Notes under the pieces: model-generated
The model's input: the letters and a program-made list of their open reading frames with translations, nothing else
Told to the model about the DNA's origin: nothing
Database searches by the model: none
Part shown: positions 1 through 5,587 of the stretch, piece after piece
How the letters are laid out: the number at the start of each line of letters is the position of its first letter
Numbering within the stretch: position 1 is the stretch's first letter
Assembly (NCBI GenBank): GCA_937925595.1
Contig: CALALQ010000352.1
Span: forward strand, 1 to 5,587
Reading direction: 5' to 3'
Length of the DNA stretch: 5,587 nucleotides
DNA from: an uncultured Demequina sp.
GTDB taxonomy: Bacteria > Actinomycetota > Actinomycetes > Actinomycetales > Demequinaceae
Translations under genes and position numbers: made by a program

Positions 1-312
1 TCGCGTGCGCTGAAGCTGATGGCGAAGGAGCTGCAGGTTCCCGTCATCGCCCTGTCTCAGCTGAACCGTGGCGCCGAGCAGCGCGCCGACAAGAAGCCGG
101 CCCTCTCCGATCTGCGTGAGTCGGGCTCGATCGAGCAGGATGCCGACATGGTGGTGCTGCTGCACCGCGAGGCGGCTTATGAGAAGGACTCCCCGCGCGC
201 CGGTGAGGCCGATCTGATCGTGGCGAAGCACCGTAACGGGCCGACGGACACGATCACGGTCGCGTTCCAGGGGCACTATTCGCGGTTCGCGGATATGGCG
301 CCGGGGATGTAG
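1..312 (+). CDS. dnaB: Replicative DNA helicase DnaB, C-terminal end (5' partial)
   Basis: This is the last 103 residues of the hexameric replicative helicase, which unwinds DNA at the replication fork using ATP. The frame is open from base 1 and stops with TAG at 310-312, so the gene begins upstream of the window. The RecA-fold C-terminal domain is recognisable. A strand ends in ALSQLNRG (the sensor-like glutamine and loop region), followed by a segment with [15 protein letters not shown] (the conserved DnaB motif H4 region), then [11 protein letters not shown], which supplies the arginine-finger/lysine region. The protein ends in a short FQGHYSRF tail typical of actinobacterial DnaB. It looks like a normal housekeeping copy, with no intein or frameshift in the visible part. 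It probably marks the chromosomal side of the island boundary, since a mobile-element insertion scar begins about 55 bases downstream. No clear intrinsic terminator follows the stop codon. Confidence 0.95.
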
Positions 313-364: not shown

Positions 365-967
365 CTAGGTTCGAGTCCCTCCAGGGGCACAGTCTGTTTT
401 TAGCGTCGGATACGCCGAGCACGCCGCCAGCGTCGCGACCTGGTCATGCGTGAGGTAGACCCGACGCTTGCCCGGCCCGCGGCGAGGAAGACTACGCACG
501 TGCCGGGCTGGATTGCTTGCGAGGCGGCGATCGTCAATGGCGACGTCGAGGATGCCGGCGAGGACTCCCAGCGCGCGAAGAACGACCGTGCGCGACTTCT
601 GCGTCGCAAGGTCAGACACCCAATCCTGGACTTCGGAGCGTCGGATCGACGAGATCTCTCTGTCGACCCACACCGGCGCGACGTGGTTCTTCCACGCCCG
701 TTCGAGCGTCATGTAGTACGAGGGCTTCGACATCGGCGGCTGCTTGGATCGCAGCCAGCTGTCCGCGAACATCCGGACCGGGACGCGTGACGAGGACGGG
801 TCGATGTACTCACCCTTCGACTTCGACACCGTGACCATGGAGAGGTAGAGCTTCGCCTCGCGCATCGTCGTGAAGCCACGCTTCTCGGCCTCGGTACGAT
901 CCGGCTTGCGAAACCGCACACGGTAGCGGCGGCCATTCACCGTTTCGTGCGGGGTGATGCTGCCCAT
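365..967 (-). pseudogene. Truncated phage-type tyrosine recombinase (integrase), N-terminal half only
   Basis: The ORF begins at an ATG (965-967) preceded by GGAGG with a 5-base gap, and ends after 200 residues, about half the usual length of phage integrases. Residues about 10-60 (VNGRRYRVRFRKPDRTEAEK onward, with an aromatic/basic beta pattern) resemble the arm-type DNA-binding domain. Residues about 65-155 form the SAM-like core-binding domain (MFADSWL, NHVAPVWVDREISSIR, VQDWVSDLA, ALGVLAGILDVAIDDRRLASNP). Residues 170-189 (YLTHDQVATLAA) start the catalytic domain, which then breaks off. The catalytic Arg, the HxxR box and the Tyr nucleophile are all absent. The last dozen residues (KTDCAPGGTRT) are encoded antisense to the adjacent tRNA-like fragment and are not integrase sequence. 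It cannot catalyse strand exchange; at most it could bind DNA. It is probably a relic of the element that delivered the downstream genes. The family call is confident; whether the remnant is expressed is unknown. Confidence 0.82.
368..390 (+). other. Orphan tRNA 3'-end fragment, probable integration (att) core or scar
   Basis: Bases 370-376 read TTCGAGT, a canonical tRNA T-loop. They are followed by CCCTC (T-stem 3' strand, 377-381), CAGGGGC (acceptor 3' strand, 382-388) and an A at the discriminator position. The 5' T-stem strand would have to be GAGGG, but only G368 and G369 fit, so similarity stops there and there is no anticodon arm or 5' acceptor to the left. The piece is therefore not a tRNA gene. 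Many tyrosine-recombinase elements integrate at the 3' ends of tRNA genes and carry or duplicate exactly this portion, and an integrase fragment lies directly beside it. A matching 7-bp TCGAGTC also occurs at 342-348. The amino-acid identity of the parent tRNA cannot be told; its 5' acceptor should read GCCCCTG. Confidence 0.65.
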
Positions 968-1407: not shown

Positions 1408-3426
1408 ATGAGCATCACATTCGGCGTAGGGGCTGGGTCGGTTCTGCAGTCGACGCTGCTCGCTGACGATCGCGCCATTCGGGTTGGCGCGATCCATCGA
1501 CTCGACTTCCACGAGGCCGTTGTGCTGACCCATGACAAGTGGAAGTTCGATGCGGGCGGGATCCCTCAGCACTCCTTCCTGCTCGCAACCGCCCGAGACG
1601 CAGACCGTCCCGGTGACGACGACGAGGTCCTGCTCCTCAGGGTCGAGGGCACCGCTTCGCTTTCGCTCGAGTCCGATCTGCTTGCGGTCCGTGAGGAGTC
1701 GCTCCGTGATGCGCTCAGCCGCGCTGAGGACCCGTCGCCAAGCGTGGTTCTTGACCGCCACATGGACCCGTTCACGCTGAACCGCGCGTCGTTTACCGGT
1801 CTGAAGTGTCGTGTGCTCGGCACCTTTTACGAAGACATCGCCGCCGGAACCACGCAGCTCGTGTTTGGCGCCGATGTCGACAACTTTTACGCGACGAGCA
1901 CGTATCGAGTGCTGAAGCCGACTGGTGCGGGCCTGTCAGCTATCGCGAGCTACCTGAAGCCCGACTCGGAGCCCGGCGACCAGGTGCGGCTGGGTGTCGT
2001 CCGGTACTCCGCCACCCGCCGGCGCGCTCTCGCCGCAAATCAGGCGGACGCGGCGGTCAACGTGCGCATCCAGGACTTCATCGGCCACAAGACAGCCCTT
2101 CTCGGCATGACCCGCTCGGGCAAATCGAACACCGCAAAAATCATCATCGCCAAGACCTTCGTCGCGTCGGAGCAGCGCCGCCGGGACGGGAAGTCTCCTA
2201 TCGGTCAGTTGATCTTTGACCCTCAGGGCGAGTACGCGAACGCCAATGTGCAAGACGAGTCGGCGGTCGCCGGACTTGGCGCCGAACACGTGCGCATCTA
2301 TAAGTTCGGCGCTGACGGTGGAGAAGCGCACGTCAAGCCGCTGGCGATCAACTTCTTTGATCCGAAGCAGATTGACACCGCGCAGGGTTTGATTGCGGCC
2401 ACGCTTTCGCAGCAGAGCGGGTCGGGTTATGTGCAAGACTTCATCGCCACCGACTTCACAGGAGGGTCGGACTCGCAAGACTACGGCTCCAAGAACCACG
2501 CCAGTCGAGGGAGGCTCGGCCTATACGCGACGCTGCTGCGTGCTGGATTCAAGCCGCCGCGCGGGTTCCACGTGAACGTAAGTATGAAGCGCGAATTCGC
2601 CGATCAGGTGGCAAGCGCGATCAGCACGAACCCATTCCCCCCGGCGCAGAGCGGATACGTGAGCATCCCCGGCGATCAGGTTGTGAATGCCGTCCTGAAG
2701 ATCGCCGAACTCCGCGAGTCCGACGACGCGAACGCTAAGGACTTCGGCCGCGAGACTCCCTGGACGAGCACGGAAGCGATGGCGACCGGGAAGTCGTCGT
2801 CCGGTTCGGGAAAGGTCCGCGGCTACCTGAACCTCATCCCGATGCGCGTGTTCCACGATCCCGCCGTGACCGACGACGTCGCCGAGGGCATATATCAGGA
2901 GCTTCTCGAGGGGCGCATCGTCATCATCGATCTTCACATCGGCAGCGAGAAGGTGATTCAAACGATGTCCGAGACGATCACGGAACACCTCCTCGAGCGG
3001 CACACGGGTGTCTTCACAAACGGCGAGGAGCCCGGGCACATCCAGGTCATGCTCGAAGAGGCACACAACCTATTCGCGTCCGACCGCTACAAGAACGACG
3101 CCGACGTGTGGGTGCGTCTCGCGAAGGAGGCAGCAAAGCTGAAGATCGGCATGTTGTATGCGACCCAGGAGGTGACCGGCGTCGCCCATCAGGTCAAAGC
3201 GAACACTGCGAACTGGGTCGTCGCGCACCTTAACAACCGGCAGGAGCTCAACGAGCTGGGAAAGTTCTACGATTTCGGATCCTATGCCGACGCGATCCTC
3301 GCATCTGAAGACCGGGGATTCGTGCGGCTGAAGACACTATCGTCTCCGTTCATCGTGCCCGTCCAGATCGAGCGCTACGCGAAGGCGCTGATTGACGAGG
3401 CCAAGGCTGTAGCGGCGGGGAGCTAG
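1408..3426 (+). CDS. herA: HerA-type hexameric DNA translocase/helicase ATPase
   Basis: This 672-residue P-loop ATPase belongs to the HerA/FtsK superfamily, whose hexameric rings pump double-stranded DNA and hand ends to a partner nuclease such as NurA. An N-terminal beta-rich region (about 1-215) fits the HAS barrel. Walker A is GMTRSGKS at 233-240. A FDPQGEY motif (270-276) matches the HerA-specific D-x-x-GEY signature. A hydrophobic strand ending in IIDLH (506-510) precedes helical packing. Walker B is VMLEEAHN at 547-554, with the paired glutamates 550-551 and the His usual in HerA. The polar strand-end motif YATQE (584-588) is followed by a conserved Asn/Arg-rich segment (KANTANWVVAHLNNRQE). 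Between Walker A and B lies a large, Ser/Gly-rich and helical insertion (about 340-500). The ATG at 1408 is chosen for its AGGAGG; the frame is open further upstream but the product there is low-complexity. The gene is the first of the operon and its stop lies 2 bases before the nuclease start. Sequence cannot separate a repair role from a defence role. Confidence 0.9.
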   Translation: MSITFGVGAGSVLQSTLLADDRAIRVGAIHRLDFHEAVVLTHDKWKFDAGGIPQHSFLLATARDADRPGDDDEVLLLRVEGTASLSLESDLLAVREESLRDALSRAEDPSPSVVLDRHMDPFTLNRASFTGLKCRVLGTFYEDIAAGTTQLVFGADVDNFYATSTYRVLKPTGAGLSAIASYLKPDSEPGDQVRLGVVRYSATRRRALAANQADAAVNVRIQDFIGHKTALLGMTRSGKSNTAKIIIAKTFVASEQRRRDGKSPIGQLIFDPQGEYANANVQDESAVAGLGAEHVRIYKFGADGGEAHVKPLAINFFDPKQIDTAQGLIAATLSQQSGSGYVQDFIATDFTGGSDSQDYGSKNHASRGRLGLYATLLRAGFKPPRGFHVNVSMKREFADQVASAISTNPFPPAQSGYVSIPGDQVVNAVLKIAELRESDDANAKDFGRETPWTSTEAMATGKSSSGSGKVRGYLNLIPMRVFHDPAVTDDVAEGIYQELLEGRIVIIDLHIGSEKVIQTMSETITEHLLERHTGVFTNGEEPGHIQVMLEEAHNLFASDRYKNDADVWVRLAKEAAKLKIGMLYATQEVTGVAHQVKANTANWVVAHLNNRQELNELGKFYDFGSYADAILASEDRGFVRLKTLSSPFIVPVQIERYAKALIDEAKAVAAGS

Positions 3427-3428
3427 GA

Positions 3429-4793
3429 GTGCCCTACGTCACCGCGGCCGGCGACAGCTTCGAGCGCGCCGGCCGTCTCAGCCACAGTGCAGCGGCCGTC
3501 CAAGCGATGGCGGATCATGCCGAGTTCTTCGTGCCGGCCGACGTACTCGCCGACGCTACGTGGGTCCGTGATGTCGTGGTGCAGAAATCCTCGATATCTG
3601 GCGCGAGTGAAGCACCATCGCTCGACTGGGCCATCGCAATCGACGGCTCCCACCTCACGCAGCAGGTGCGCGACGGGATGCCGTCCGTCCTCTATGGCTT
3701 CGCGCAGGCGGCCGCCGCTCTCGTCGACCTGGCCGTAATGACCGAACAGTCGGCAGCGCGCTTCGTGGATCCTATCGAAATGGAACGCGCCGTCTCCACA
3801 GCGCTCGTCACCCTCGACCTTCCCGTTGCCGGCGCCTATTCCCGCGAAGGCATCGACATCAAGACATCGTGGCGCGAACTAATGAACCGGATCTTCCGCG
3901 AGAAGTACGTGGAAGTCGACGGCTTCAAGCACAGTCTCCTTGAGCTGCTTTTCCGCCTGCATGGCGTCCCCGGCGGCGCAGCCGACTCGGTACCGGTGAA
4001 CTGCCCCGACTGCTCCGTCAAAGACCTCGCCGTCGAGTTCGACGGGATGAAGTGCCCGGGATGCACCCTGGACCTCTACCCGACCGACAGCCTCCGCATC
4101 CATGAAGGTGTTCAGGAGGACAAGTCGAACGAGGAGTCGCTCGGGCGGCTGCGATCAGTGATCGAGCTCCTGGTGCTCGTCGGACTCACGACCCTCATGT
4201 GGGAACGGTCGCGTCGGTTCCTCCTTCCCCGGACGCTATTCATTCAGGACGGCCCGCTCGCGATGTACGGCGAGCCGGCGAAGCTGCGCGCGCAGGCCGA
4301 GCGTTACTTCCGGGCGATGGCGAACTCAACCCCAGGCGAGGCGCCGTACATCTGCGGTGTCGAGAAGTCGGGTGCGTTCGTGGACTACGGTCGCGCGCTC
4401 GCACGCCACGATCTCGTCCAGCCAGGCGAGGTCGTCATCTGTGGGAGGCAGGTCCTCGAGAAGCTGGTGAGCACCAACGATCCGATCGCCTACGGTAAGG
4501 AGACCTATTGGGGTCGGAAGTTCATCTACCGCAGCCTTGACAGCCGAGTCGTGGTGATCACCGTCCCGCCCTTCAGCGGCAGCGCGTACGATGCTCGCGG
4601 TGGCCAGCCAGGCCCGGACGGGTATCCGACGCTCCCCGCGATCCTGGATGTCATAGATCGCACCGGCTCATCGATGTACCAAGATGGCATTATTCCAGTC
4701 GCGGCCGCGCACGGGCGTGCGGCTTTCCCGATCGGCGTCGGCACGGACGTGCTCCGGCTCGTCGCGCGCGAGAAGCTCGGGCTTGCCCGCTAA
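3429..4793 (+). CDS. nurA: NurA-domain nuclease with an inserted zinc-ribbon-like Cys4 motif
   Basis: This 454-residue protein is a NurA-family, RNase H-like nuclease that works with HerA to degrade or resect DNA ends in a metal-dependent way. The first active-site motif is WAIAIDGSH, with Asp72 at the end of the first strand. The second is LFIQDGPL with Asp274, followed by a long helix. A strand then carries the GVEKSG motif (310-315, Lys313), as in family members. The C-terminal part (VVVITVPPF, YPTLPAILDVID, and AAAHGRAAF around His428) closes the fold. Between the first and second motifs, Cys192-x2-Cys195 and Cys209-x2-Cys212 form a zinc-ribbon-like knuckle pair, which archaeal NurA proteins as I know them lack. 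The start is GTG at 3429, with GGGGAG at 3417-3422 as ribosome binding site and only 2 bases after the herA stop, which indicates translational coupling. The match to NurA is by motifs and by the HerA neighbour. Confidence 0.85.
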   Translation: MPYVTAAGDSFERAGRLSHSAAAVQAMADHAEFFVPADVLADATWVRDVVVQKSSISGASEAPSLDWAIAIDGSHLTQQVRDGMPSVLYGFAQAAAALVDLAVMTEQSAARFVDPIEMERAVSTALVTLDLPVAGAYSREGIDIKTSWRELMNRIFREKYVEVDGFKHSLLELLFRLHGVPGGAADSVPVNCPDCSVKDLAVEFDGMKCPGCTLDLYPTDSLRIHEGVQEDKSNEESLGRLRSVIELLVLVGLTTLMWERSRRFLLPRTLFIQDGPLAMYGEPAKLRAQAERYFRAMANSTPGEAPYICGVEKSGAFVDYGRALARHDLVQPGEVVICGRQVLEKLVSTNDPIAYGKETYWGRKFIYRSLDSRVVVITVPPFSGSAYDARGGQPGPDGYPTLPAILDVIDRTGSSMYQDGIIPVAAAHGRAAFPIGVGTDVLRLVAREKLGLAR

Positions 4794-4812
4794 GTGAGAA
4801 GGGAAGGGCATC

Positions 4813-5587
4813 GTGCTCCAGCCATCGCCCACGCGGACGCGCCAGCACGCAGCCTCCCGCACACCGCCGACCCGCTACCTGTCGCCATTGCGATACCCCG
4901 GAGCTAAGTCCAAGCTGACGCCCCTCATCGGCGATCTGATCCGAGACGCGCGCAATCGCCGCGCTCTCCACGGGCAGGTCACGCTCGTCGAGCCTTTCGC
5001 GGGTGGTGCGTCGACGACGCTGAGACTGCTAACGGACGGCGTGGTAGAGCGCGCGATCATCGGTGACGCGGATCCCATGCTCTCGTCCTTCTGGTACGAG
5101 GCCGCCAGCGCGCCCGAGCGACTCATCGAGCGCATGTCCAACGAGTTCGATCGCTACCTTGCCATCGGTGGCGATGTGGCCGTCTCTCGATGGGATTATT
5201 GGCGCGCATGGCAACCAGAGCTGGGCTTGCCACTAGACGCGAATCGCGCCGCGCTCGCGCTCAAGTGCCTCTTCCTTAACCGCACCACCTTCTCGGGCAT
5301 CCTCCATGGCAGCGCCGGCCCTATCGGCGGACGCGCGCAGGCAAGCGAGTACACCATCGGCTGCCGATTCCCCGTCGACGGGCTTGCCGAGCGCATCCGC
5401 TGGATCGGACATCTCGCCGACACCGGCCGCCTGGTACTCGTGCACGGCGGCACCTGGCGCGAGACGCTAGACATCGCCGTCGAGTTCGTCGACGACCCGG
5501 GAGAACTCGTTGCGTACCTCGACCCGCCCTACATCGAGAAGTCGGACCGCCTCTATGCGACCGGTTTCGAAGGTTCCGGGCACGCTC
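4813..5587 (+). CDS. D12-class DNA N6-adenine methyltransferase (Dam family), 3' partial
   Basis: 258 codons are visible and the frame is still open at the right edge. The enzyme transfers a methyl group from S-adenosylmethionine to N6 of adenine at a specific DNA site. Motif order is that of the D12 (alpha) group: motif X, LRYPGAKSKL, at 26-35; motif I, VEPFAGGAS, at 59-67 for cofactor binding; then an acidic IIGDADP strand around 80-86. The D12 target-recognition region holds LNRTTFSG (155-162) and GPIGG (169-173). Catalytic motif IV, DPPY, is at 237-240. The likely start is GTG at 4813, preceded by GGGAAGGG (4800-4807), 19 bases after the nurA stop, so it belongs to the same operon. The first 20-odd residues (Thr/Arg/Pro-rich) precede the conserved fold and may be a tail or a start misplacement. 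Dam enzymes usually recognise GATC, but the target cannot be read from this sequence. No cognate restriction gene is visible within the window. Confidence 0.9.
   Translation, partial: MLQPSPTRTRQHAASRTPPTRYLSPLRYPGAKSKLTPLIGDLIRDARNRRALHGQVTLVEPFAGGASTTLRLLTDGVVERAIIGDADPMLSSFWYEAASAPERLIERMSNEFDRYLAIGGDVAVSRWDYWRAWQPELGLPLDANRAALALKCLFLNRTTFSGILHGSAGPIGGRAQASEYTIGCRFPVDGLAERIRWIGHLADTGRLVLVHGGTWRETLDIAVEFVDDPGELVAYLDPPYIEKSDRLYATGFEGSGHA

Follow-up and report, generated by a model that had tools for sequence, protein, structure and literature searches.

What does a HerA-NurA pair do when a DNA methyltransferase gene follows it? The question is raised by contig CALALQ010000352.1 of an uncultured Demequina sp. 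(assembly GCA_937925595.1), whose 5,587 nucleotides analysed here are referred to as the window. Genes for a HerA-like ATPase, a NurA-like nuclease and a D12-class DNA adenine methyltransferase form a single compact operon in the window (Table 1), as an original prediction made from the DNA alone had proposed, and the catalytic motifs of all three enzymes are intact at the sequence level. The methyltransferase matches Pfam MethyltransfD12 (E = 9.3e-11) and has the motifs EPFAGG and DPPY, the latter invariant across 31 aligned rows. A DNA methyltransferase with intact motifs thus adjoins a nuclease, and the likeness to restriction-modification (RM) drawn in that prediction is supported. HerA and NurA here make up a TdpAB-like module that is mobile and linked to a methyltransferase. 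We regard it with moderate confidence as a mobile, methylation-linked variant of modification-dependent (TdpAB-type) HerA-NurA restriction, with defence by modification-gated degradation as its most likely role.

The identity of the HerA-NurA pair was borne out by its relatives. The nearest solved relative of both proteins is TdpAB (PDB 8wet, 8wfd, 8y1k), as judged by the HerA sequence and by both predicted folds, with structural alignments at 17-21% identity; the operon encodes both a TdpA-type translocase and a TdpB-type nuclease. The fold was used for NurA because its profile found no relative among PDB sequences (no match at E 0.1, and at E 10 only one repressor, E 0.6). The HerA-NurA pairs of archaea and Deinococcus have the same folds as the window pair, but their structural scores are lower than those of TdpAB. 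The first reading is thus supported in naming a HerA-NurA pair, but not in its kinship to the archaeal and Deinococcus resection pair. Since TdpAB is nearest, and not that pair, modification-gated degradation is favoured over resection.

The methyltransferase is co-conserved with HerA and NurA. A scan for close relatives, taking one genome per species, returned 31 loci, and the D12 gene lies behind NurA in all 30 whose contig permits assessment (the contig of L033 ends less than 30 bp past a shortened NurA frame). Wider genome samples were counted with their centre genomes included. The module core was found in 7 of 396 Actinomycetota genomes (two known beforehand), four of them with a D12 gene, one (G338) with a PF01555 methyltransferase upstream and two with none identified. 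A methyltransferase profile run over the same 396 genomes, scoring at most four candidates in each, matched eight at E ≤ 1e-30: four at ≤ 3.1e-159, all directly adjoining NurA, and four at 6.3e-47 to 5.2e-34. A protein search scored 7996 candidates, the best 120 of its 404 matches being listed.

The distribution is patchy. The core is present in 5 of 199 Streptomyces genomes (two known beforehand; D12 in all five), in 1 of 198 Microbacterium and in 1 of 398 Pseudomonadota, the last two being the centre genomes themselves. It is neither conserved across the clade, as housekeeping end resection would be, nor a fixed core-genome locus in the two sampled genera. In three Streptomyces (L010, L013, L032), a gene that precedes the module has homologues in 19 of the 199 genomes, 17 of them without a NurA match; these homologues are 50-83% identical, and identity of the site is not proven. 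Streptomyces and Micromonosporaceae are spread over several clades of the NurA tree, as expected under horizontal transfer.

The view of the operon as island cargo at a tRNA attachment site is supported by its closest relative, from Microbacterium oleivorans (L005). There the operon lies on a 23.2-kb island and adjoins a full-length integrase of 376 residues and a tRNA-Arg(CCT) gene (6122-6194), whose 3' end recurs as a 22-bp repeat 23.2 kb away; the G+C content is 63% in the island against 70-71% in two flanking stretches. The integrase fragment of the window had also been read correctly as a relic: compared with L005, 23 nt of the tRNA 3' end are joined to about 188 integrase residues, with the catalytic half missing and about 760 bp lost. 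The window holds no full tRNA gene, but the 3' end alone, on the dnaB side (310-401), and its element may occupy a secondary site or may have lost its tRNA neighbour. The dnaB 3' end is probably the chromosomal flank.

Phages and plasmids carry relatives too. Scans of viral contigs with queries A2 and A5 gave relatives, and those with A1 and with a Vibrio NurA gave none. Relatives are encoded on eight IMG/VR contigs, of which five (L101, L103, L104, L105, L106) have a D12 gene directly upstream of HerA and two (L101, L105) have integrases downstream; upstream of HerA at L102 we recognised no D12 gene, and this contig stops after HerA. A Vibrio phage encodes an integrase, HerA (in two frames) and NurA, plus a D12 gene on the opposite strand. 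The partner of the core varies: it accompanies a PF01555 methyltransferase, of the unrelated N4/N6 class, on two plasmids (a Halorarius plasmid and a Deferribacter megaplasmid) and in one actinobacterium (G338), and an AbiTii gene on a Nostoc plasmid. On the NurA tree the D12 label has to change four times (starred branches force three or more of these changes) and the PF01555 label three times (two or more forced), several of these rows having long branches and unsure placement. Average identities between L047 and the close clade, 37% for HerA, 32% for NurA and 56% for the methyltransferase, suggest that the methyltransferase may have been exchanged between deep lineages. That the core keeps a DNA methyltransferase while its class switches is, to us, the best indication that methylation is relevant to its function.

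In the mechanism that we propose, the D12 methyltransferase would mark host DNA, and a HerA hexamer would load onto duplex DNA, pump it and feed it to the NurA nuclease. Marked DNA would stall or escape the HerA motor, and unmarked phage or plasmid DNA would be pulled through and degraded. We infer the defence role, methylation as the self mark, and the gating of translocation or cleavage by that mark. A broader idea, which we hold only tentatively, is that modification-gated HerA-NurA immunity is widespread in bacteria, archaea and phages: one core would have been paired repeatedly with D12 N6-adenine, N4/N6 and phosphorothioation (TdpABC) enzymes, and the ring translocase would read the marks as it pumps, base methylation by itself being enough to gate destruction of the whole duplex without a site-specific endonuclease. 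If so, HerA-NurA, long held to be repair enzymes, would also be a methylation-coupled immune system, and one that defence annotation misses, since NurA has no match in the PADLOC copy used and HerA and the methyltransferase match only parts of other systems. Such a system would allow one to test directly how a ring motor distinguishes DNA that carries a mark from DNA that does not, using a single type of core and marks of different chemistry, and it would link TdpABC with the cassettes found on phages and perhaps with the DNA-donation operon of Thermus.

Several observations weigh against modification-gated defence. Distant D12 relatives (<40% identity) occur in 10 phage and 17 plasmid records, mostly without this HerA-NurA, so the link is a property of the close subfamily and not of D12 enzymes generally. 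No methyltransferase was recognised at the Nostoc locus (L002, next to AbiTii), at the viral locus L107 (no D12), at G510, where only 1.9 kb of contig lie beyond NurA, or at G578, which has NurA without HerA; at L099, another of the eight viral contigs, the D12 gene lies 2.1 kb off on the other strand. Distances of the methyltransferase correlate less with those of HerA (r = 0.59) and NurA (0.61) than those of HerA and NurA with each other (0.96). The phage-borne modules may serve the phage and not the host. The excess of PADLOC families around the operon carries limited weight. Flanks of 19 of the 31 loci were compared with control stretches of the same contigs, using proteins of at least 180 residues (204 of the 302 flank proteins and 216 of the 270 control proteins that have at least 100 residues); the flank proteins match 199 and 93 PADLOC families (E ≤ 1e-10) against 11 and 13 for the controls, a tally that counts redundant, partly generic families and not proteins, includes a TnpB read as Cas12f, and is indicative only. 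Pfam tallies of flanks cover A7 and A9. TdpAB is the nuclease part of a Thermus defence system based on phosphorothioate marks, and degrades DNA that lacks the mark; a backbone mark differs from a base mark, and the gating need not transfer. Finally, an operon of ICETh1 in Thermus thermophilus that joins a HerA-like gene, NurA and a methylase functions in DNA donation, and its methylase is nearly dispensable for transfer (PMC5365140, PMC7767461).

Two other explanations are the main rivals. One, which we hold to be unlikely, is a nuclease for defence that responds to a phage signal, whether abortively or in another way, with the methyltransferase as antidote or regulator and not as a genome-wide self mark. 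In complex with Sir2 or with DUF4297, HerA takes part in antiviral responses (PMC12977600), and the methyltransferase is similar to component B of PD-lambda-5, which the published description calls a compact prophage version of an RM+Abi (abortive infection) system. However, the co-conservation of the methyltransferase and the use of two unrelated classes are explained most simply if methylation itself matters, and clustering of flank genes found no further gene common to most loci.

Export of DNA by HerA, with NurA processing the ends and the methyltransferase protecting the element, would amount to DNA donation or mobilisation, the other main rival, which we consider quite improbable here. 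Its precedent is ICETh1, which is integrated in a tRNA 3' end and encodes an integrase, the HerA/FtsK-like ATPase TdtA, a nuclease resembling NurA, and a methylase. A type IIG enzyme, NurA, TdtA and the methylase are co-transcribed and the first three are needed for efficient donation: without TdtA transfer was undetectable, and without NurA or the type IIG enzyme it fell by orders of magnitude (PMC5365140, PMC7767461). The M. oleivorans element integrates in the same manner, and a HerA-like ATPase, NurA and a DNA methylase likewise share one operon. The type IIG enzyme required in ICETh1 was, however, not recognised in the L005 operon, the sole one annotated gene by gene (HerA, NurA, D12, Mod, ResIII, UvrD-PDDEXK), the window ending after the methyltransferase. 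The near-dispensable methylase of ICETh1 also contrasts with a methyltransferase kept throughout the close clade, and phage carriage fits poorly, phages having their own transfer route.

Housekeeping end resection with the methylase as a chance neighbour is rejected on distribution and context as very improbable: the family names and the pairs of archaea and Deinococcus, in archaea sharing an operon with mre11 and rad50, speak for it, but occurrence is patchy, an island and phages carry the module, TdpAB is the nearest solved relative, the methylase is no chance neighbour, an mre11-rad50 pair was not recognised in the window-type operon (no systematic search for one being made), and a 2026 study argues that even HerA-NurA of Thermococcus does not serve end resection, and suggests that it has an antiviral role.

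Table 1. Features of the window and their positions
Feature	Position	Strand	Remarks
dnaB (replicative helicase), 3' end	1..312	+	DnaB_C, E 1.4e-43
Integrase relic	365..967	-	has just the arm and SAM-like domains and lacks the catalytic one; Phage_int_SAM_3, E 2e-7; homologue of 376 aa at L005 6403-7533
att core: final 23 nt of tRNA-Arg(CCT) plus element end	368..401	+	33 of 34 bases identical to L005 6172-6205
HerA/TdpA-like DNA-translocase ATPase	1408..3426	+	672 aa
NurA/TdpB-like nuclease	3429..4793	+	454 aa; inserted four-cysteine, zinc-ribbon-like motif (C192, C195, C209, C212)
D12-class DNA adenine methyltransferase	4813..5587	+	3' end cut by window edge; 258 of ~349 aa present

The four cysteines of NurA residues 192-212 are invariant in a 47-row alignment that includes relatives from archaea, cyanobacteria and phages; in a separate alignment of 31 loci, one or more rows have Ala at position 195. 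HerA is divided in several relatives: into two overlapping frames in the Vibrio phage (L004 1309-3502), although HerA of another Vibrio phage aligns as one piece; into two pieces in Deferribacter (L003 4006-7804), where an insertion of IS200/IS605 type lies between them; and into 166 and 516 residues with an opposite-strand frame between them in Kibdelosporangium (L008 7041-9990). Downstream of the methyltransferase, L005 encodes a Mod-like protein (PF01555), a ResIII helicase and a UvrD-PD(D/E)XK protein. Such genes recur near the trio in varying order (L005 12337-20062; L007 244-7859; L027 2020-7590; L022 13127-15937), with all three in L005 and, by clustering, L007, the methylase and UvrD in L027, and UvrD alone in L022. 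The far end of the M. oleivorans island (L073 2213-7747) encodes a 645-residue SMC/Rad50-like ATPase, along with genes judged by eye to be sensor-kinase- and response-regulator-like. The G338 locus (L048 5017-16620) consists of a PF01555 methyltransferase, HerA, NurA and a DUF4041/MUG113 protein, followed, by eye, by an exonuclease-like and a 1344-residue protein, and resembles a more extensive defence cluster. In Catellatospora, a gene that precedes the trio (L030 5137-6600) matches PADLOC Cas12f models and clusters with an annotated TnpB of L003.

No description of a HerA-NurA-D12 operon was recognised in the literature searched, which mostly excluded subscription papers and preprints. Among known systems, the best PADLOC match of the methyltransferase is PD-Lambda-5_B (E = 1e-44); membership of PD-lambda-5 was rejected, HerA and NurA having no PD-Lambda-5_A match in PADLOC up to E 0.1. 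The tdtA operon of ICETh1 has tRNA 3'-end integration, an integrase, NurA, a HerA-like ATPase and a methylase in common with the island but differs in its type IIG restriction enzyme, its PF01555 methylase and its demonstrated role in DNA donation. Sir2-HerA (Nezha) and DUF4297-HerA likewise join a HerA-family motor to a partner effector, but their HerA scores half the bits of TdpA against the window HerA, the window partner has a NurA fold, and a methyltransferase accompanies it, whereas those systems are not known to have a modification gene. Membership of TdpABC was rejected, since the locus has no PF01507 phosphorothioation gene (TdpC or DndC-like): PF01507 (PAPS-reductase family), presumably the family of TdpC, had no match up to 20 kb from NurA in 30 genomes (with a number of contigs ending sooner) and none anywhere in M. 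oleivorans G001 or G265, and a TdpC of another family could escape this search. Compared with TdpABC, the window NurA has the four-cysteine insert as a possible difference from TdpB, and the operon carries a D12 DNA methyltransferase in place of the phosphorothioation gene TdpC.
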